Origin: Candidatus Pacearchaeota archaeon CG10_big_fil_rev_8_21_14_0_10_34_76
GTDB lineage: Archaea; Nanobdellota; Nanobdellia; Pacearchaeales; GW2011-AR1
Direction of reading: 5' to 3'
Assembly (NCBI GenBank): GCA_002763075.1
Contig: PFDB01000002.1
Coordinates: forward strand, 126,286 to 189,970
Length of the DNA: 63,685 nt
This document shows positions 4,392 through 18,241 of the stretch, piece after piece; within the stretch, counting starts at the first letter, position 1; the number at the start of each line of letters is the position of its first letter. The translations under genes and the position numbers were made by a program. The notes beneath the pieces are model-generated. The model saw only the letters and a program-made list of their open reading frames with translations. It was not told the origin of the DNA and ran no database searches.

Positions 4392-5054
4392 CTATGGTTT
4401 TCTTGCGATTATTAAGCCTGCTCTCCAGAAAAATGGCTTTGTTTCTAGAATTTTATAGTGATTGTTTCTTAAAACAACTAGAATATCTGCTGTTGAAACC
4501 TTGTGACAAAGATCTTCATCATTTCCAAAGACATTCTTACTTAAATTCGGCCTGGTTATTTCAAACCTTGTTTTTTTGGTAATTAATGTTAAAAGTTGTT
4601 TGAGCTTATTCTGGCGATTTGGATAACGCAAGAAAAGAAGGCCGCGAGGCCTTAGAACTTTATTGATCTCGAACAACATTTTTCTTGGTTCTAGGACGTG
4701 CTCAATTGTCTCAGCACTTATAACTACATCGAAACTATTTTTGGGGAAATCTAAGTGGGTGACATCCATAACTCTAAATTTTGCTTTTTTAGCCTTGTTT
4801 GCTTCCCTTACAAATAATGGGGAAATATCTACTCCAGTTACGACATAACCCTTAGTTGAAAGAAAATTTGCAACTTGCCCTGCTCCAGAACCTAAATCCA
4901 ATATCTTAGCGCCCTTGGGAGCCATTTGGAGTATTTTGTTTAAGTATTTAGAATAAACTGAAATATCATGTTTTTTCAGCTGGGCTAAATAGGGCTTGGA
5001 ACTTGAGTAAAATTCCTTCATTGATTTCTTAATCTTTTTTACGTCCACCTTCAT
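4392..5054 (-). CDS. Class I SAM-dependent methyltransferase
   Basis: ILDLGSGAGQVANFL, DVVISAETIEHVLEP. Confidence 0.85.
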   Translation of the reverse strand: MKVDVKKIKKSMKEFYSSSKPYLAQLKKHDISVYSKYLNKILQMAPKGAKILDLGSGAGQVANFLSTKGYVVTGVDISPLFVREANKAKKAKFRVMDVTHLDFPKNSFDVVISAETIEHVLEPRKMLFEINKVLRPRGLLFLRYPNRQNKLKQLLTLITKKTRFEITRPNLSKNVFGNDEDLCHKVSTADILVVLRNNHYKILETKPFFWRAGLIIARKP

Positions 5055-6678
5055 CGTTAGTTAATTTATTTATTATTTTATAAATCCTTTCAGTCGCCTT
5101 GCCATCCAGATTATAATAATACTTCCTTAGAAACCTTGCCCCGTTGTCTAATAATGGTTTGAGAATATTATTATCCTTCAGGATTTTTTGTATAAACTCT
5201 GTGGCTTGTTTTTTATTATTAAACTCTATGGCTGCATTTTCTTTTGTCCAAGGTAATGTTCCGAGAGAGTTTGGAAAATTAAAAATAAAAACTGGCTTCT
5301 TAAACATCATTGCTTCCAATGCAACAGTAGAACTGAGAGTAATAAAATAGTCACATGAAGTTAATGCTTCAAAGGTATCTAACTTCTTATCCAAAATAAC
5401 TGCATTTATTTTATTCTCTTTTATTCTATGCTTATAGAATGATATGTCTTTTTCAGCAGGGTGTGGTTTTATTATTATTTGTATTTGCTTAAATTTCTTT
5501 AACACATCCATAGTACCATTAAAGTATTTGTCTCTCAAAATGTCTATAAGTGGCTGTGTGGCAATCAAAAATATTTTTTTGTCTTTGTCAATGCCGTATT
5601 TCTCTATAAATTTCTCTCTTAAATCTGGCATTAGATAATTCTTAATCTTATCATATCTGGGCTGTCCAACTACTTCAATCATTTTCTTATTATATTTTAA
5701 CTCTTTAACCAGAATATTTTTCACTTCTGGTCCAAAAACACAAAAAACATCTGGAAATGTTTTGTTTTCCTTATTTTCACCGAGTTGAAAGTAGCCTTCA
5801 TGCAATTTGTAGACGACCCCATGCTGCAACGCAATAGTCTTGATTCCCTTCTCTCTTGCAGCATAAATTAAAATTTGCTCCCATCCTCCCCGTTCATTCT
5901 GCAATAAAATTGCTTCTGGATGGACTTTATTTAAAAAATTCCTGGACATCTCAAGCAATTTCATTTTTCTTGGCAGAACAACTTGAAAATAATAATCAAA
6001 AAAATTCATTAATCTCTCGCCTAAAATATCTCCTTTTTCATAAAGAATCTTATGCAAATCACTACTTCCTTTGATTTTTCTCCAAATCTTTCTAAAATGT
6101 CTTCTTGCTCTAAATTGTTTAATTAATACATTTAAATTCCAGAAAGATTCGATTGAAGCGTAGGGAGAATCAGGTCTTTTTACTCTTCTGTTAAATAAAT
6201 TCAAGAAAGATTCAAGAGAACGTGTCTGCAATATCTGTAATTCCCCAATTGAAAGTGTTGATTTTCCGAATTTTTGGTTTTCTTTAATTAAAGAATCAAA
6301 AAAATCATCAACTTTTTCATAATTTTTTGTTTCTGGATTATATACATCCTTCCAATATCTGTCCATTGTTACAAAAGTTACTGGATCTTTCTTCTTTTTG
6401 TAGCTGGAATAAACTATCATTCCAATAAAACCATTTAAGAAATCAATTAACAATTCAATTTTTGGAAAAATATTCATCCTAAGATTCAATTCTTTTTTAG
6501 GGAGGGGGACTTTCCTTTGATACTGGTTCATCTCCTGACAGACGCCTATGATGCAAAACCACCATAAATTTATTCCATTATATTCAAAGTAATCATATAA
6601 CTTTTTTCCACTTACTTCTTTATCCTTTAACTTGTGTGCCCAAGTAAAAAAACTCTCTTTAATTTCTTTCTCATTCAT
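5029..6678 (-). CDS. Capsule/glycerophosphotransferase or epimerase-like GT-B fold protein
   Basis: TIALQHGVVYK, IIIKPHPAEKD, YFITLSSTVALEAMMFKKPVFIFN. Confidence 0.6.
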   Translation of the reverse strand: MNEKEIKESFFTWAHKLKDKEVSGKKLYDYFEYNGINLWWFCIIGVCQEMNQYQRKVPLPKKELNLRMNIFPKIELLIDFLNGFIGMIVYSSYKKKKDPVTFVTMDRYWKDVYNPETKNYEKVDDFFDSLIKENQKFGKSTLSIGELQILQTRSLESFLNLFNRRVKRPDSPYASIESFWNLNVLIKQFRARRHFRKIWRKIKGSSDLHKILYEKGDILGERLMNFFDYYFQVVLPRKMKLLEMSRNFLNKVHPEAILLQNERGGWEQILIYAAREKGIKTIALQHGVVYKLHEGYFQLGENKENKTFPDVFCVFGPEVKNILVKELKYNKKMIEVVGQPRYDKIKNYLMPDLREKFIEKYGIDKDKKIFLIATQPLIDILRDKYFNGTMDVLKKFKQIQIIIKPHPAEKDISFYKHRIKENKINAVILDKKLDTFEALTSCDYFITLSSTVALEAMMFKKPVFIFNFPNSLGTLPWTKENAAIEFNNKKQATEFIQKILKDNNILKPLLDNGARFLRKYYYNLDGKATERIYKIINKLTNDEGGRKKD

Positions 6679-6917: not shown

Positions 6918-7940
6918 ATGGAAGAGATATTCAAGGATAAGACTGTTTTGATTACAGGTGGGACAGGTTTTATAGGTCGCCATCTTATTAAAGATATTTT
7001 AAAGTTTAATCCTAAAAGTATTCGTGTTTTGAGCAGAGATGAACTTAAGCACTATGATTTAAAGCAGGTTTTTACTGATGTTAAAGTTAAAAGTTTTATA
7101 GGAGATGTTAGAGATTATGAAAGATTAAAAAGAGCTATGAATGGGTGCGATATAGTCATCCATGCTGCAGCACTTAAAAGAATTGATCTTATTGAGTACA
7201 ATACTGAAGAATGTATTAAAACAAATATACTGGGCACACTGAATGTTGTTCATGCTTGTCTTGAAACTGGAGTCTCCAAGGCAGTTTATATCTCTACAGA
7301 TAAGGCATGTTTACCAGTAAACACTTATGGTGCTTCAAAATTTTTGGGAGAGAGAATATTCATTGAGAGCAATTATAGCAAAGGAGATCATAAAACTTTA
7401 TTTGTGTGTGTAAGATATGGAAATGTTTTGGAAAGCACTGGATCTCTAATACCCATGATCAGGGAGAAAATTATTAAGAATGAAGATTTAACTATCACTG
7501 ATCATAAAATGACCAGATTCTTTATCACACCGGCCAAGGCAATAGCCCTTATCTTTAATTCTCTAAAATATGGTGTAGGCGGAGAAATATTTATTCCAAA
7601 GCCTGATGGGTTTAAGATTATAGATGTTATACAGGCGATAAAAGATTTATATAAATATGACAAGGAAATTAAAACTGTAGGAATTAGGCCTGGTGAAAAG
7701 ATTCATGAAGTTTTAGTTAATTCACAAGAAGTGCCAAGAACATTAGATATGGGGGAGTTTTTTGTCATAACTTCTCAGATAGAGAGGTACCAAAGTAATA
7801 TTAAGCACTCGTACTTATTGGGCAAACCTTCTGTTAATTATCAAGAATATACTTCAAATGACAATCTTCTTTCTATAGATGCTCTGAAGAACAGATTAGC
7901 TGAAATAGGGGTTGATGCAATCAATACACACAATGATTGA
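6918..7940 (+). CDS. pseB: UDP-GlcNAc 4,6-dehydratase/5-epimerase, PseB-like (SDR)
   Basis: VLITGGTGFIGRHLIKDILKFNPKSIRVLSRDE; YISTDKACLPVNTYGASKFLGE. Confidence 0.85.
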   Translation: MEEIFKDKTVLITGGTGFIGRHLIKDILKFNPKSIRVLSRDELKHYDLKQVFTDVKVKSFIGDVRDYERLKRAMNGCDIVIHAAALKRIDLIEYNTEECIKTNILGTLNVVHACLETGVSKAVYISTDKACLPVNTYGASKFLGERIFIESNYSKGDHKTLFVCVRYGNVLESTGSLIPMIREKIIKNEDLTITDHKMTRFFITPAKAIALIFNSLKYGVGGEIFIPKPDGFKIIDVIQAIKDLYKYDKEIKTVGIRPGEKIHEVLVNSQEVPRTLDMGEFFVITSQIERYQSNIKHSYLLGKPSVNYQEYTSNDNLLSIDALKNRLAEIGVDAINTHND

Positions 7941-8610
7941 AAAAACACCACAAATGGAAAACTGGGCAGGGGAATTTGGTAAGGACTACACAGACAGAAA
8001 TCCCATTACAATTGAACAGCTCAATGCACTTTATGTTCAAAACCTTGGGATCACAAGGGACAAAATCAACGAGCTGTTTTTTAAAGATCTTCAAGTAGGC
8101 TCGGTGTTGGAGGTCGGCTCAAATGTAGGTGTTCAGTTAATTTCCCTTCATGATAAATTGGGACTTAGAAATCTTTATGGAGTTGAGATTCAAAACTATG
8201 CGGTGGATAAGTCCAAAGAGCTAACCAAGGGAAAAGACATTCATAATATAACTGGCTCAGCATTAAATCTTCCATTTAAAGATAAATCCTTTGACTTGGT
8301 AATGACAAATGGAGTTCTAATTCATATTTCTCCAGAAGATATTAATAAAGTAATGGAGGAAATCCATAGATGTGCAAAAAAGTATATTTTTGGTTATGAA
8401 TACTTTGCTGAGGATTACATGGGGGTTGATTACAGAGGTAACAAGAATCTTTTATGGAAAACAAATTTTGCAAAGCTATTTTTAGATAATTTCCCTGACT
8501 TAAGTTTAGTGAAGGAGGATAAATATCCTTATCTATCGGATTCTTCTTTGAAAGATCAAGCATTTTTATTAGTTAAAGATGAAAATACCTTACGGAAAAC
8601 AAACAATTGA
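7912..8610 (+). CDS. Pseudaminic acid biosynthesis-associated methylase
   Basis: WAGEFGKDYTDRNP N-terminus and VLEVGSNVGVQL; position between pseB and pseC. Confidence 0.75.
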   Translation: MMQSIHTMIEKTPQMENWAGEFGKDYTDRNPITIEQLNALYVQNLGITRDKINELFFKDLQVGSVLEVGSNVGVQLISLHDKLGLRNLYGVEIQNYAVDKSKELTKGKDIHNITGSALNLPFKDKSFDLVMTNGVLIHISPEDINKVMEEIHRCAKKYIFGYEYFAEDYMGVDYRGNKNLLWKTNFAKLFLDNFPDLSLVKEDKYPYLSDSSLKDQAFLLVKDENTLRKTNN

Positions 8611-9733
8611 CAAAGAGGATGTTCTGGCAGTTATAGGAGTGTTAGAGAGTGATTTCCTGACGACTGGGCCAAAAGTGAAGGAATTTGAAGAATCCTTTGC
8701 GGCTGCCGTTGGGGCAAAATATGCAGTAGCAGTTTCAAGCGGTACTGCTGCCCTTCATCTGGCATGTATGGCTATTGGTTTAAAAGAATCAGATGAAGTT
8801 ATAACTTCACCAATGACTTTTGTTGCATCTTCAAATTGTGTATTATATTGTAACGCAAAACCTGTTTTTGTAGATATTACTAAAAACGGCTTAATTGACA
8901 ATGAGAAAATAGAAGAAAAAATAACTTCAAAAACAAAAGCAATTATTCCTGTTCATTATTCCGGTTTAATCTGCGATATGAGCGAGATAAACAGAGTTGC
9001 CAAGAAACACAAATTATATGTAATTGAAGATGCCTGTCATGCCCTTGGAGCAAAATACGAGAATTCTAAGGCTGGAGACTGCGAGTATTCTGACTTAGCA
9101 ATATTTAGCTTTCATCCAGTTAAACATATTACAACTGCGGAAGGAGGGATGATAACAACTAATTCTAAGCAGCTGTATGAAAAATTGTTGATGCTTAGAA
9201 CTCATGGGATTACCAGAGACCAAAATAAATTAATAAAAAATAACCCTGAGCCATGGTACTATGAAATGCAGGAGCTTGGGTATAATTACAGGATAACTGA
9301 TGTTCAGTGTGCTTTGGGTGCATCTCAACTAAAAAAACTGCCAAAATTTATAGAATTGAGAAGAGATATTGCTAAAAAATACAACTCTTTTTTTAAAGAC
9401 CTAAAAGATATAACCATATTAAAGGAAAAGGAAAATCAATTTAATTCATATCATTTATATTTAATAAAAGTTAAAAATGAAGAAACGAGACTAAAACTAT
9501 TTAATTACCTACATGAAAAAGGAATTTTTTGTCAGGTGCATTATATTCCAGTTTATTGGCAACCATATTATAAAAAAATAGGATATTCTGTCGGAATTTG
9601 TCCCAATGCTGAAGAATTTTATAAGAGAATTATCAGTCTGCCAATTTATCCAGGATTAACAAGAGAAGAGCAAGAATATGTTATAGATAAAATAAGAGAA
9701 TTTATAATTAAAAGTCAAAAGAATACCATCTAA
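8579..9733 (+). CDS. pseC: DegT/DnrJ/EryC1 aminotransferase, PseC-like
   Basis: IPYGKQTIDKEDVLAV, AVSSGTAALHLA, FSFHPVKHITTAEGGM (PLP lysine). Confidence 0.88.
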   Translation: MKIPYGKQTIDKEDVLAVIGVLESDFLTTGPKVKEFEESFAAAVGAKYAVAVSSGTAALHLACMAIGLKESDEVITSPMTFVASSNCVLYCNAKPVFVDITKNGLIDNEKIEEKITSKTKAIIPVHYSGLICDMSEINRVAKKHKLYVIEDACHALGAKYENSKAGDCEYSDLAIFSFHPVKHITTAEGGMITTNSKQLYEKLLMLRTHGITRDQNKLIKNNPEPWYYEMQELGYNYRITDVQCALGASQLKKLPKFIELRRDIAKKYNSFFKDLKDITILKEKENQFNSYHLYLIKVKNEETRLKLFNYLHEKGIFCQVHYIPVYWQPYYKKIGYSVGICPNAEEFYKRIISLPIYPGLTREEQEYVIDKIREFIIKSQKNTI

Positions 9734-9788
9734 TCCAATGTTTTATTTGATTAGATAAAAATATAAATCTCGCCTTCGGTATAAAACT

Positions 9789-10550
9789 ATGAAACAGAGC
9801 ATTATTATACAAGCAAGAATGAGTTCTACCAGACTTCCAGGTAAAGTTATGCTCAACCTGGCTGGAAAGCCAGTTTTACTCCATGTTTATGAGAGATGTA
9901 AGAATGCGAAGGTAGATGATGTTATTATAGCCACTACAACAAACAAAAGTGATGACATAATAGAAGAGTTTTGTAAAAAAAATAATATTCTCTATTTTAG
10001 GGGTTCGGAAGAGGATGTATTGGACAGGTATTACCAATGTGCAAAAAAATTCAAAGTAGACATAATTGTCAGAGTAACTTCGGACTGTCCTCTGATTTCT
10101 TCGGAGATAATAGATGAGGGGATAGAGAAGTTTAGAGCAGAAAAAGTAGATTATTTAACAAATGTCTCTCTTAGAAGTTTTCCTAGAGGACTGGATTTTG
10201 AAGTATTTAGTTTTGATACCTTGGAGAAAGACTATAATTTAGCGAAGAAGAAACACGAGCGGGAGCACGTAACTCCGTTTATTTATAGTAACCCCAGTTT
10301 GTTTAAAATTGGAATTTTTCTGGCTCATGAAAAGATTAGGCGTCCAGATATGAGACTATGTTTAGACACAAAAGAAGATATGGAATTATTAGAGATAATT
10401 TACAAAGAACTGTATAGTGAAGATACTATTCAGTTGGAAAAGGTTATCCAATTTTTAACTAAAAATCCAGACCTCATAAAACTTAATCAAGATAGCGAAA
10501 AAGAACATTTAGAGAGAAGTAAAGAAGTAAAACAGAGTTTTACAAAATAG
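9789..10550 (+). CDS. Cytidylyltransferase (SpsF/PseF-like)
   Basis: IIIQARMSSTRLPGKVMLNLAGKPVLLHVYER. Confidence 0.85.
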   Translation: MKQSIIIQARMSSTRLPGKVMLNLAGKPVLLHVYERCKNAKVDDVIIATTTNKSDDIIEEFCKKNNILYFRGSEEDVLDRYYQCAKKFKVDIIVRVTSDCPLISSEIIDEGIEKFRAEKVDYLTNVSLRSFPRGLDFEVFSFDTLEKDYNLAKKKHEREHVTPFIYSNPSLFKIGIFLAHEKIRRPDMRLCLDTKEDMELLEIIYKELYSEDTIQLEKVIQFLTKNPDLIKLNQDSEKEHLERSKEVKQSFTK

Positions 10551-10590
10551 CTTTAGAAACATTTTTATAGCAAATGTATATCGTGATTTA

Positions 10591-11649
10591 ATGAACGAAA
10601 TTGTAATCTCCACACCAAAAGGAAAGAGAAGAATTGGCCCTGGAAATTCAACATTTATAGTTGCTGAGATGTCTGGAAATCATAATCAAAGTTTTGATAA
10701 CGCCTTAAAGATTATAGATGCAGCTGCAGAGTCTGGAGTTGATGCAATAAAATTGCAAACTTATACTCCTGAAACTATGACTATTGACTGTAATAACAAA
10801 TATTTTCAAGTAAATGTAAATGAAGCATGGAGGGGGAAAAGTCTGTATAAATTATATCAAGAGGCATATACTCCATGGGAGTGGCAACCAAAGTTAAAAG
10901 ATTATGCAGAATCAAAAGGAATTTTGTTGTTTTCTACACCATTTGACGAGTCCGCAGTAGATTTTTTAGAGAAAATGAATGTTTCATTGTATAAAATAGC
11001 TTCATTTGAATTAGGACATATACCCTTACTGAAAAAGGTAGGATCTACTAATAAACCAGTTATAATCTCGAGAGGGCTTGCCTCGATAGAAGAAATTAAT
11101 CTGGCAGTTAAAACCTTAAGAGAAGAGGGATGTCCTGCGATAATTATTTTACATTGTGTAAGTTCTTACCCAGCCACAACGGAACAGATGAACATTTCAA
11201 CAATTCAGAATATCTCAAAAAGATTTGATGTTGTGTCTGGTCTTTCTGATCATACGTTAGGACTAACTGCATCCATAACTGCAGTTTCTCTTGGAGCATC
11301 AGTTGTTGAAAAACATTTTACTCTTTCAAGGGTTGAAGGTGGACCGGATGCTTCTTTTTCTTTGGAACCATCAGAAATGAAAGAACTTGTAAATAGTATA
11401 CGTGAGGTTGAGAAGGCAATAGGAAAACCAACTTATGATATTGGAGAGAAAGAAAAGGAAAATTTGATTTTTAAAAGATCAATTTTCGCAGTTAAAGATA
11501 TAAAAAATGGTGAAAAATTCACTAATCTTAATATTAAAATTATTAGGCCAGGATATGGGATTGAGCCAAAATACTATGAGCATTTACTTGGAAAAATTTC
11601 AAATAGAGATATTGAAATGGGAACTCCAATAAAAATGGGGGATTTGTAA
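10591..11649 (+). CDS. pseI: Pseudaminic acid synthase-like NeuB family protein with C-terminal SAF domain
   Basis: FIVAEMSGNHNQSFDNALKIIDAAAESGVDAIKLQTYTPETMT; SLGASVVEKHFTLSR; SAF-like SIFAVKDIKNGEKF. Confidence 0.88.
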   Translation: MNEIVISTPKGKRRIGPGNSTFIVAEMSGNHNQSFDNALKIIDAAAESGVDAIKLQTYTPETMTIDCNNKYFQVNVNEAWRGKSLYKLYQEAYTPWEWQPKLKDYAESKGILLFSTPFDESAVDFLEKMNVSLYKIASFELGHIPLLKKVGSTNKPVIISRGLASIEEINLAVKTLREEGCPAIIILHCVSSYPATTEQMNISTIQNISKRFDVVSGLSDHTLGLTASITAVSLGASVVEKHFTLSRVEGGPDASFSLEPSEMKELVNSIREVEKAIGKPTYDIGEKEKENLIFKRSIFAVKDIKNGEKFTNLNIKIIRPGYGIEPKYYEHLLGKISNRDIEMGTPIKMGDL

Positions 11650-11651
11650 AA

Positions 11652-12263
11652 ATGCCTCCAAAATATAAAGTTGTGGGGTTTCTTGCAAGGCAACATGGAT
11701 TGGAAGGACTGAAATCGATAATGAAATCAGAAAAATATGATCCTTTATGTGTTTTTACTCATAGAATGAATCCTACTTCAGAGAATCCGTCAGGAGAGCA
11801 GAGAGATGATTTTAAAGATTTTGAATCTCTTACGCGGAGCCATGGAATACCTCTTTATGCAGTAGATTCAAAGAACGAGAATAGAATAGTTTATGGAATC
11901 TTCCGAGACTATCCAATAGATCTTATTTTATCAATAAGTTGGCGCAGGCTGATACCTCTGCATCAACTTAGAATGGCCAAATATGGGGGTTTGAATATTC
12001 ACAGAGGGAAATTGCCAGAATATGCAGGAGCATTACCAATTCATCGTGCATTGCGGGATTGTCAGAAAAATCTTTATGTAACTGCACATGTGTTATCTGA
12101 AGAGATAGACGGCGGAGAGATTTTAGATACGATTGTTCATCCAGTGAATTATAATCCTGAAAAGTCTTTAGAAGAAAATATAGAAAGATTGAAAAGAGAA
12201 ATTTCTCCCCATATGGGAGAATTATCTATTAGAGGTTTGGATAAACTGCTTTTACGAAAATGA
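11652..12263 (+). CDS. Formyltransferase (Met-tRNA formyltransferase-like fold; probable sugar N-formyltransferase)
   Basis: GLNIHRGKLPEYAGALPIHRAL...VTAHVLSEEIDGGEIL formyltransferase active-site pattern. Confidence 0.75.
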   Translation: MPPKYKVVGFLARQHGLEGLKSIMKSEKYDPLCVFTHRMNPTSENPSGEQRDDFKDFESLTRSHGIPLYAVDSKNENRIVYGIFRDYPIDLILSISWRRLIPLHQLRMAKYGGLNIHRGKLPEYAGALPIHRALRDCQKNLYVTAHVLSEEIDGGEILDTIVHPVNYNPEKSLEENIERLKREISPHMGELSIRGLDKLLLRK

Positions 12264-13576
12264 TAAATAATAAAAAAGTATTTATATTTGATTTGGACGG
12301 AGTGATTATCAACACAGTTGAGTTTTTGTATAATTCATATTTAAAATTTCTTTTAAAATACAAGATAAATGGTAGCAAAGAAGAATTTAATATGCTGAAT
12401 GGCCCGAAAATAGAGGATATTATTATTTATCTTAAAACAAAGTATAAAATAAAAGAATCTGAGTCTCATCTTTTGGAGGAATATAACGGTTTGATAAATT
12501 CTGTTTATAATAAGGCTGAAATGGTCTCGGGAATTGAAAAAATTCTCAAAATATTAAAAACATTTAACTTTGATATCGCTTTGGCTACATCTTCTTCAAA
12601 AAAGAATGTAGACTTTATATTGAAAAAATTTGATTTATCACATTACTTTAATGTAATTGTCTACGGAGATGATCTAAGCGAAGCGAAACCATCTCCATTA
12701 ATTTATAATTTAGTAAGAAACAAAATTCCTGCGAAAACTTATTATGTAATAGAAGATTCTGTTCAAGGGGTAATCGCCGCTAAAGCTGCTGACATGAAAA
12801 TAATCTTTTTTAACAGAGAAAACAAAAAGGCAAACCAGAGTTGGGATTATCAGGCATCACGGACAGAGGAATTAATGAATATAATTGTAAAACTCATTAC
12901 TAATATAGATATTCTAAGCGTGGAACAGGATCTAAAATTAGTGGTTGTTAATCAGCCAATAACCGATTCGCAAGAAAAAAAGGATAAGGTAAACCTGATT
13001 TGGGAGGAGAAAAAGAAAAATAACTCCTCTGTTTATGAAGGGAATATCTTAAGAGGTATAAGTGTTGAAAGGAAAGGAAAGGATGTTATTTTGCTTTGCT
13101 CACAAACTGAATATAAATATTATCTGGCAAAGTTTAGTGATTCTTCATTGGGTTTCAAAATTAATCCGATAGCGATATCCGGTTTGATAACTGATAATGA
13201 AGGGTATACCTTGATAGGAAAAAGGAGGAAGGTTACATCCCATGCAGGACATTATGAATTGGTACCTTCTGGTGGCGTAGATTCTGTAGAATTCAGAAAA
13301 CAGATAATAAAGGAGTTCAAGGAGGAAACCGGGTTTGATGAGGAAATCATAAAAAGAGTTGATATTAGTGGTCTAATTTTTGATAATACTGAATCTTTGT
13401 ACGAAATAATATTCAATATACATATATCTAAAAGTCTGAATCTTCTTTTGCCAAGTTTAAAGATTGGTGAATATGAAGAATTTGAAGTAATAAAACTTAG
13501 TGAGTTCGGCAAGATTATTAGTAATTATGAATTTGTCCCACTCTCAAAATTAATTTATGCCATGATAGATAATTAG
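12260..13576 (+). CDS. Fusion: N-terminal HAD phosphatase + C-terminal NUDIX hydrolase
   Basis: HAD motif FDLDGVIINTV and IEDSVQGVIAA; NUDIX box GGVDSVEFRKQIIKEFKEETGFDEE. Confidence 0.85.
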   Translation: MINNKKVFIFDLDGVIINTVEFLYNSYLKFLLKYKINGSKEEFNMLNGPKIEDIIIYLKTKYKIKESESHLLEEYNGLINSVYNKAEMVSGIEKILKILKTFNFDIALATSSSKKNVDFILKKFDLSHYFNVIVYGDDLSEAKPSPLIYNLVRNKIPAKTYYVIEDSVQGVIAAKAADMKIIFFNRENKKANQSWDYQASRTEELMNIIVKLITNIDILSVEQDLKLVVVNQPITDSQEKKDKVNLIWEEKKKNNSSVYEGNILRGISVERKGKDVILLCSQTEYKYYLAKFSDSSLGFKINPIAISGLITDNEGYTLIGKRRKVTSHAGHYELVPSGGVDSVEFRKQIIKEFKEETGFDEEIIKRVDISGLIFDNTESLYEIIFNIHISKSLNLLLPSLKIGEYEEFEVIKLSEFGKIISNYEFVPLSKLIYAMIDN

Positions 13577-17575: not shown

Positions 17576-18007
17576 CTATTTTATTACCCAATTGAAAAAG
17601 AAAAATTCTCTTCTGTAGAATCTATCGTGGAGAAGAAGCCAGAAAAGGTCGAGTAATGAATGGAAAATCATTCCTATGAAAATATAAAAGAACGGAGTCC
17701 ATAAAAATGCCAATATTGCTATTAAGAGATGGAATTCTATTGTGTGAAAGATATGGAAATCTCCCCTTTTCCTTAAACCTTTTTTGTTTTCAGACTCTTC
17801 TATTTTGCCAAGATGTTTATGATATTCAAGTGCATGCTTCAATCTTACCTTCCTTGTCTTTATTGCTACATTAAGGTAGTGATCAAAGTCTATTAAAAAC
17901 GAGGATAGGAAAATGAGAGCAATATATATGAGGTTAGTTTGAGGTGCAGCAATCCAGATTATTATTGTGAAGATTGCCCCAAAAAAAATATGCCATCTTG
18001 GTAACAT
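17576..18007 (-). CDS. Integral membrane protein of unknown function (start re-assigned to MLPRWHIFF)
   Basis: Hydrophobic segments, FLIDFDHYLNVAIKTRK; upstream in-frame extension is translated 39-bp tandem repeat, so the shorter start is preferred. Confidence 0.6.
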   Translation of the reverse strand: MLPRWHIFFGAIFTIIIWIAAPQTNLIYIALIFLSSFLIDFDHYLNVAIKTRKVRLKHALEYHKHLGKIEESENKKGLRKRGDFHIFHTIEFHLLIAILAFLWTPFFYIFIGMIFHSLLDLFWLLLHDRFYRREFFFFNWVIK

Positions 18008-18014
18008 TCTACAA

Positions 18015-18149
18015 CCCCTCCGCGGTTCTAGGAGTCCGGGTAAGAAGATGACACCCCTCCGCGGTTCTAGGAGTCCGGGTAAGAAGATGACACCCCTCCG
18101 CGGTTCTAGGAGTCCGGGTAAGAAGATGACACCCCTCCGCGGTTCTAGG
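18015..18149. repeat. Tandem 39-bp repeat, 3 full copies + 18 bp
   Basis: cccctccgcggttctaggagtccgggtaagaagatgaca at 18015, 18054, 18093, partial at 18132; degenerate 24-bp relic at 18197-18220. Confidence 0.95.
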
Positions 18150-18241
18150 TATTTGCAGAGCAAGCTCCGCATACATCCAACTCTTACGAGTTATATGAGT
18201 CCTGGTAAACAGATGACGCCAATCAATACAGAATTTTATTA

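Follow-up and report, generated by a model that had tools for sequence, protein, structure and literature searches.

How might an archaeon complete a pseudaminic-acid-type pathway if PseH and PseG, the enzymes that acylate the sugar and release it from UDP, are not recognisable in its genome? The question is raised by a stretch of 63,685 nucleotides (the window) from Candidatus Pacearchaeota archaeon CG10_big_fil_rev_8_21_14_0_10_34_76 (contig PFDB01000002.1), in which positions 6918-13576 hold seven genes, all on the + strand, in one run, adjacent genes overlapping or being separated by no more than 55 nt. In gene order, the intergenic spacings are -29, -32, 55, 40, 2, and -4 nt. We consider it close to an even chance, though slightly short of one, that the product of this operon is a pseudaminic-acid-like surface sugar, CMP-activated, N-formylated, and possibly methylated, and that a formyltransferase and a HAD-Nudix fusion protein, encoded by the last two genes, replace PseH and PseG, respectively.

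The operon and the probable absence of PseG and PseH

The operon shares a PseB-like dehydratase, PseC, and PseI with the CMP-pseudaminic acid pathway of Helicobacter and Campylobacter (PseB-C-H-G-I-F), here within a single operon (Table 1). It differs from that pathway in having neither PseG nor PseH, in the addition of the formyltransferase, a methylase, and the HAD-Nudix protein, and in a CTP-transferase that the curated model TIGR03584 does not accept as PseF, the score lying far below the cut-off. As to the canonical CMP-Pse5Ac7Ac set, PseC and PseI pass their curated cut-offs, and for the PseB-like protein the PseB model is the best match but its cut-off is not reached. The original prediction, made from the sequence alone, had listed all seven families, and all seven are present; the HAD and Nudix domains, which it described as a pair, turned out to belong to one polypeptide. 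Its PseF-like cytidylyltransferase can be kept as a member of the CTP-transferase family, not as PseF.

The 914 kb assembly of the host genome is 88.11% complete; its SecD/SecF and exosome genes, judged by eye, point to an archaeon. The PseG model (TIGR03590) gave no match in it, the same search being positive in 5 of 14 control genomes. The PseH model (TIGR03585) gave no match in the genome reaching its cut-off of 93.1; three weak GNAT proteins (about 38.3, 25, and 23 bits) lie outside the locus and away from sugar genes, their neighbourhoods being, by eye, those of the RNA exosome, a copper ATPase, and methionyl-tRNA synthetase. A genome-wide search for DUF218 proteins, which accompany PseI in some other genomes (see below), found none. 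Because the genome is 88% complete, the absence of PseG and PseH is likely rather than proven. The original prediction had called both enzymes unrecognisable and had proposed a genome-wide search for them as the check on its reading; neither turned up elsewhere in this incomplete genome, and the reading is not refuted.

Table 1. Genes of the operon and candidate PseG substitutes in nonulosonate loci without PseG
Feature	Sequence	Positions	Strand	Match or remark
PseB-like UDP-GlcNAc 4,6-dehydratase (5-inverting)	window	6918-7940	+	PF02719 E 3e-90; TIGR03589 340 bits, best NCBIfam match, below cut-off 407.75
Pseudaminic-acid-associated methylase	window	7912-8610	+	TIGR03587 185.6 bits, above cut-off 112.05; listed start is TTG; actual start uncertain
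PseC aminotransferase	window	8579-9733	+	TIGR03588 517.8 bits, above cut-off 423.5
CTP-transferase, presumed CMP-nonulosonate maker	window	9789-10550	+	PF02348 E 9.9e-40; PseF model TIGR03584 27.5 bits, cut-off 205.7
PseI pseudaminic acid synthase	window	10591-11649	+	TIGR03586 472.7 bits, above cut-off 340.25
Formyltransferase, catalytic domain alone, candidate PseH substitute	window	11652-12263	+	PF00551 E 1e-14
HAD-Nudix fusion, 438 aa	window	12260-13576	+	HAD_2 E 1.4e-31; NUDIX 16.4 bits for whole protein, below cut-off 21.1
Fusion, HAD phosphatase half	window	12260-12901	+	boundary at residue 214 is our own cut
Fusion, pre-Nudix region and Nudix half	window	12902-13576	+	Nudix box, residues 338-359
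DUF218 gene	L081	12754-13374		
DUF218 gene	L082	10656-11309		
DUF218 gene	L125	9417-10013		
DUF218 gene	L160	8588-9175		
DUF218 gene	L224	6709-7329		
DUF218 gene	L226	10242-10862		
DUF218 gene	L231	2853-3437		
DUF218 gene	L266	5474-6079		
Endonuclease-IV/CbiR-like TIM barrel	L083	2536-3801		fused to PseH
Endonuclease-IV/CbiR-like TIM barrel	L166	11537-12292		adjoins PseH
Endonuclease-IV/CbiR-like TIM barrel	L201	2705-3466		beside CTP-transferase
Endonuclease-IV/CbiR-like TIM barrel	L225	14333-15082		five genes downstream of PseI

Candidate roles of the HAD-Nudix fusion and the formyltransferase

That a HAD-Nudix protein could stand in for PseG is a new claim, made plausible by domain chemistry, position in the operon, and the absence of alternatives. 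We infer the following route, in which formylation precedes hydrolysis. PseB and PseC would yield UDP-4-amino-4,6-dideoxy-L-AltNAc, to which the formyltransferase would add a formyl group at N4 in place of the acetyl group introduced by PseH. The Nudix half of the fusion may then cleave the diphosphate of UDP, with UMP and a sugar 1-phosphate as products, and the HAD half would strip off the phosphate, freeing the sugar. PseI would join the free sugar with pyruvate, after which the CTP-transferase would activate the product. Nudix cleavage and subsequent HAD action would together be a two-step equivalent of the one-step PseG reaction, since human NUDT22 converts UDP-glucose to UMP and glucose 1-phosphate, the first half-reaction proposed here (PMC10101856). 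The 4-nt overlap that joins the formyltransferase and HAD-Nudix genes is counted in favour of this route.

HAD phosphatases of subfamily IA are marked by four motifs, all of which are kept in the HAD half (DLDG from residue ~10-11, TSSS at ~109-110, K143, and ED at ~164-166). Its nearest solved structures are the sugar phosphatase TM_1254 (3kbb, E 7.4e-18) and beta-phosphoglucomutase. The latter activity was dropped as a candidate role, the 6-deoxy sugar having no 6-OH. The products of PseB being 6-deoxy sugars, the nonulosonate derived from them has no 9-OH; action on a nonulosonate 9-phosphate, in the manner of a sialate-9-phosphate-type phosphatase, is therefore ruled out by the chemistry of such a 9-deoxy product.

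For comparison we used 80 named pseudaminic acid (Pse) loci other than the window, 57 with PseG inside the locus stretch and 23 without. HAD proteins occur beside or near PseI in L132, L137, L162, L179, and L201. They are distant relatives of the HAD half (BLAST at E 1e-3 finds one, with 23% identity) and do not enter the argument as direct support. Matches to the HAD profile do not set the two groups of loci apart, occurring in 2 of the 57 with PseG and 3 of the 23 without (p 0.14). A HAD phosphatase adjoins an ATP-grasp gene at or near a PseI-type synthase in L179 and L224 (Pfam) as well as in L132 and L162 (by eye), and in L233 the two are joined in one protein, likewise at or near such a synthase (by eye). 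With an ATP-grasp gene beside them, those HADs may serve another role, and the pairs suggest another modified nonulosonate module.

The Nudix half scores 18.2 bits alone, below the NUDIX cut-off of 21.1, and a profile of this half with 11 archaeal relatives matches Nudix structures with an E of 8.3e-9. The pattern of the Nudix box is G-x5-E-x7-R-E-U-x-E-E-x-G-U; the box of the fusion is slightly shortened but has all the acids, in register with viral Nudix proteins. Relatives of the Nudix half in other archaea (L037, L047, L238, L245, and others) share the pre-Nudix region. In this family the region bears a weak, statistically not significant likeness to NUDT22 (see below), a human enzyme with, to our knowledge, no HAD domain; the likeness is counted in favour of the route. 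The host genome also has a paralogue consisting of the pre-Nudix region and the Nudix domain (L265 6570-7496, G000:C3), which lies away from sugar genes and has no Pfam match at E 0.001.

The hallmark of sugar N-formyltransferases is a Formyl_trans_N domain with an Asn-His-Asp triad. The 203-residue protein of the operon keeps the triad (N115 and H117 of N-x-H 115-117, and D153, aligned with other loci), and its best match among solved structures is the formyltransferase domain of ArnA (8gjh, E 3.3e-10). A formyltransferase-fold gene lies within 6 kb of PseI in 15 of the 80 loci. The triad/INLH motif is intact in seven of these genes (L135, L139, L148, L152, L160, L165, L170); in eight the Asn is absent, and these proteins may be functionally other than formyltransferases.

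A formyltransferase within a nonulosonate cluster has precedent in print. The archaeon Halorubrum sp. PV6, which makes 5-N-formyl-legionaminic acid, also carries a predicted formyltransferase gene in its nonulosonate cluster; it differs in using the legionaminic acid route, in which the hydrolysing 2-epimerase LegG frees the sugar (PMC6137143). The type III flagellin glycosylation islands of Geobacillus contain Pse genes and the formyltransferase fmt2 and lack PseH, as here; unlike here, they have PseG (PMC5109656). By analogy with legionaminic acid, an N-formylated Pse-like product would be of a kind already known in archaea. The suggestion in the original prediction that the formyltransferase supplies the acyl group gains from these precedents and from the seven loci with an intact triad. 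Its link to a missing PseH fares less well: PseH lies within 6 kb in 2 of the 7 triad-bearing loci vs. 36 of the 65 loci without a formyltransferase-fold gene (p 0.24), and replacement of PseH is therefore not proven by statistics.

Some further features of the window may be mentioned. Upstream of the operon, positions 5029-6678 hold a surface-carbohydrate glycosyltransferase-like gene, a candidate nonulosonate transferase; in L081, L087, and L091, too, genes weakly related to it are found close to synthase genes. A perfect tandem repeat (39-nt unit, 3.5 copies) occupies 18014-18149, within the open reading frame 17576-18172. A scan for promoters and terminators (42 promoter-like sites vs. 31.8 expected) is not informative for an archaeon.

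Pse loci without PseG in other genomes

The genomes of the 23 loci without PseG differ among themselves: eight have PseG above the cut-off elsewhere, one (G514) has a full-length match below it, five have weak matches only, and nine have none. Within the family of the host, PseI exceeds its cut-off in 5 of 181 genomes, and in none of these five does any PseG match exceed 22 bits. Each of them holds one candidate for the PseG step, namely a DUF218 protein in three genomes, a TIM barrel fused to PseH in one, and the HAD-Nudix protein in one. The DUF218 gene near PseI is the sole DUF218 found in the genome in both G095 and G139; the DUF218 gene of G487 shares a short contig with a partial cytidylyltransferase gene. 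G480, which has the fusion of a PF01261 TIM barrel to PseH, has no DUF218. Among the relatives of this TIM barrel are endonuclease IV and CbiR, a phosphodiesterase; both matches fall far short of the respective cut-offs.

A second sample consisted of 361 genomes of the Patescibacteria, the phylum of L125 (Yanofskybacteria). PseI was found at E 1e-110 or better in 12 of them, including that of L125 itself; among the 11 new genomes, PseG is above the cut-off in two, weak and partial in four, and absent in five. DUF218 occurs in 3 of the 9 new loci without PseG (L224, L226, L231; all above the Pfam cut-off) and in neither of the two with PseG. In L231 it adjoins a second, lower-scoring synthase and not the best one. 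The TIM barrel of L225 scores 31.0 bits vs. a cut-off of 31.1, and an edge fragment of a TIM barrel in L232 was left out of the counts.

At the locus level, DUF218 is present in 7 of 38 loci without PseG vs. none of the 59 that have PseG (p 0.001), the TIM barrel in 4 of 38 vs. 0 of 59 (p 0.02), and one or the other in 11 of 38 vs. 0 of 59 (p 1.2e-5, or 8e-5 minus the two seed loci); the families were chosen after looking, the loci are related, many of those without PseG are shorter, and for 8 or 9 of the 38 the genome encodes PseG outside the locus. The 38 comprise the 23 above, L080-L083, the nine Patescibacteria, G271, and G470, and the 59 comprise the 57 above plus two. The window and L084-L093, in which PseI is below its cut-off, were left out, and two of the latter (L086, L088) also have DUF218. 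In L081, the gene between a CTP-transferase-PseI fusion and PseH encodes a pyridoxal-phosphate enzyme (PF00155; 11023-12297) that by eye resembles 8-amino-7-oxononanoate synthase.

Such loci of DPANN-like archaea and Patescibacteria resemble the window in having PseI without a recognisable PseG, and differ in carrying DUF218 or the TIM barrel and not HAD-Nudix. Repeated loss of PseG with unrelated neighbours seems to be the most interesting result of this analysis. It is possible, although we hold it with some doubt, that the PseG step has been replaced repeatedly in these organisms by at least three unrelated proteins: DUF218, the endonuclease-IV/CbiR-like TIM barrel, and, in two half-steps, HAD-Nudix. 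A literature search, outside the coverage of which most subscription journals lie, returned nothing that pairs nonulosonic with Nudix or pseudaminic with DUF218. The accessible part of PMC13317340 has nothing on a PseG substitute, and PMC8987622 deals with Nudix dehydratases unrelated to the pseudaminic acid question.

Weighing the explanations

Several points, in addition to the incomplete genome and the statistics on PseH, count against the route proposed for the fusion. The Nudix box lacks one residue and has Lys in place of Arg. The likeness of the pre-Nudix region to NUDT22 (E 0.13 with a three-sequence profile, 0.33 with L037 alone) is suggestive but falls short of significance, and the best 60 matches of the 12-sequence profile of the Nudix half do not include NUDT22. 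Predicted models are unusably poor, with a mean predicted local distance difference test score (pLDDT) of 34.1 for the fusion as a single sequence and 34.6 for its C-terminal part together with two viral relatives. The fusion was found in none of 179 other genomes of the order (full-length query), where matches are HAD-only or Nudix-only, and in none of 370 other genomes of the phylum (Nudix-half query), where frames outside the window reach at most 282 aa. A further scan of genome contigs gave no second fusion, and viral scans gave plain Nudix proteins only, or nothing. A Nudix domain lies within 6 kb of PseI in 1 of the 80 loci (L186), which has PseG. With the fusion seen in one genome only, no conserved neighbourhood of the kind sought by the original prediction supports its role, and relatives without PseG carry other candidates.

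Other explanations have to be considered. PseG and PseH could be encoded in the 12% of the genome that the assembly lacks, with the fusion and the formyltransferase merely decorating the sugar further. The completeness value allows for this, as do the eight genomes, among those of the 23 loci without PseG nearby, that have PseG elsewhere. However, the operon is intact, as are its flanks, PseG is inside the locus in most Pse loci (57 of 80), and the four other family genomes with PseI above the cut-off (73, 84, 84, and 71% complete) are likewise without PseG, and we regard this explanation as unlikely. No more credit can be given to a view in which the fusion merely shares the operon and serves in the salvage or housekeeping of unrelated nucleotides, or in which its HAD acts on another sugar phosphate. 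It would agree with the paralogue at C3:6570-7496, which by eye stands among housekeeping genes, and with the L037 relative, around which no Pse gene is found in the 3.3 kb listed; on the other hand, the fusion gene is the last of a pathway operon and overlaps its neighbour, and no other recognised enzyme of the pathway would release the sugar from UDP, neither PseG nor DUF218 being found. Less probable still is cleavage of the UDP-sugar by a hydrolase that has so far escaped recognition and whose gene lies elsewhere in the genome. The Micrarchaeal and Thorarchaeal Pse loci L131, L141, and L149 point in this direction, having neither PseG nor any candidate in the stretch examined and belonging to genomes without DUF218, but no gene for such a hydrolase is known, and the fusion offers suitable domains in the right position.

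If PseH and PseG have indeed been replaced as proposed, pathway searches that require PseG would wrongly score these archaea and candidate-phylum bacteria as unable to make pseudaminic-type sugars. Candidate enzymes would be named for the missing step, and DUF218 proteins would gain a candidate substrate class and reaction. The surface sugars of this archaeon would be predicted to be formylated and not acetylated.

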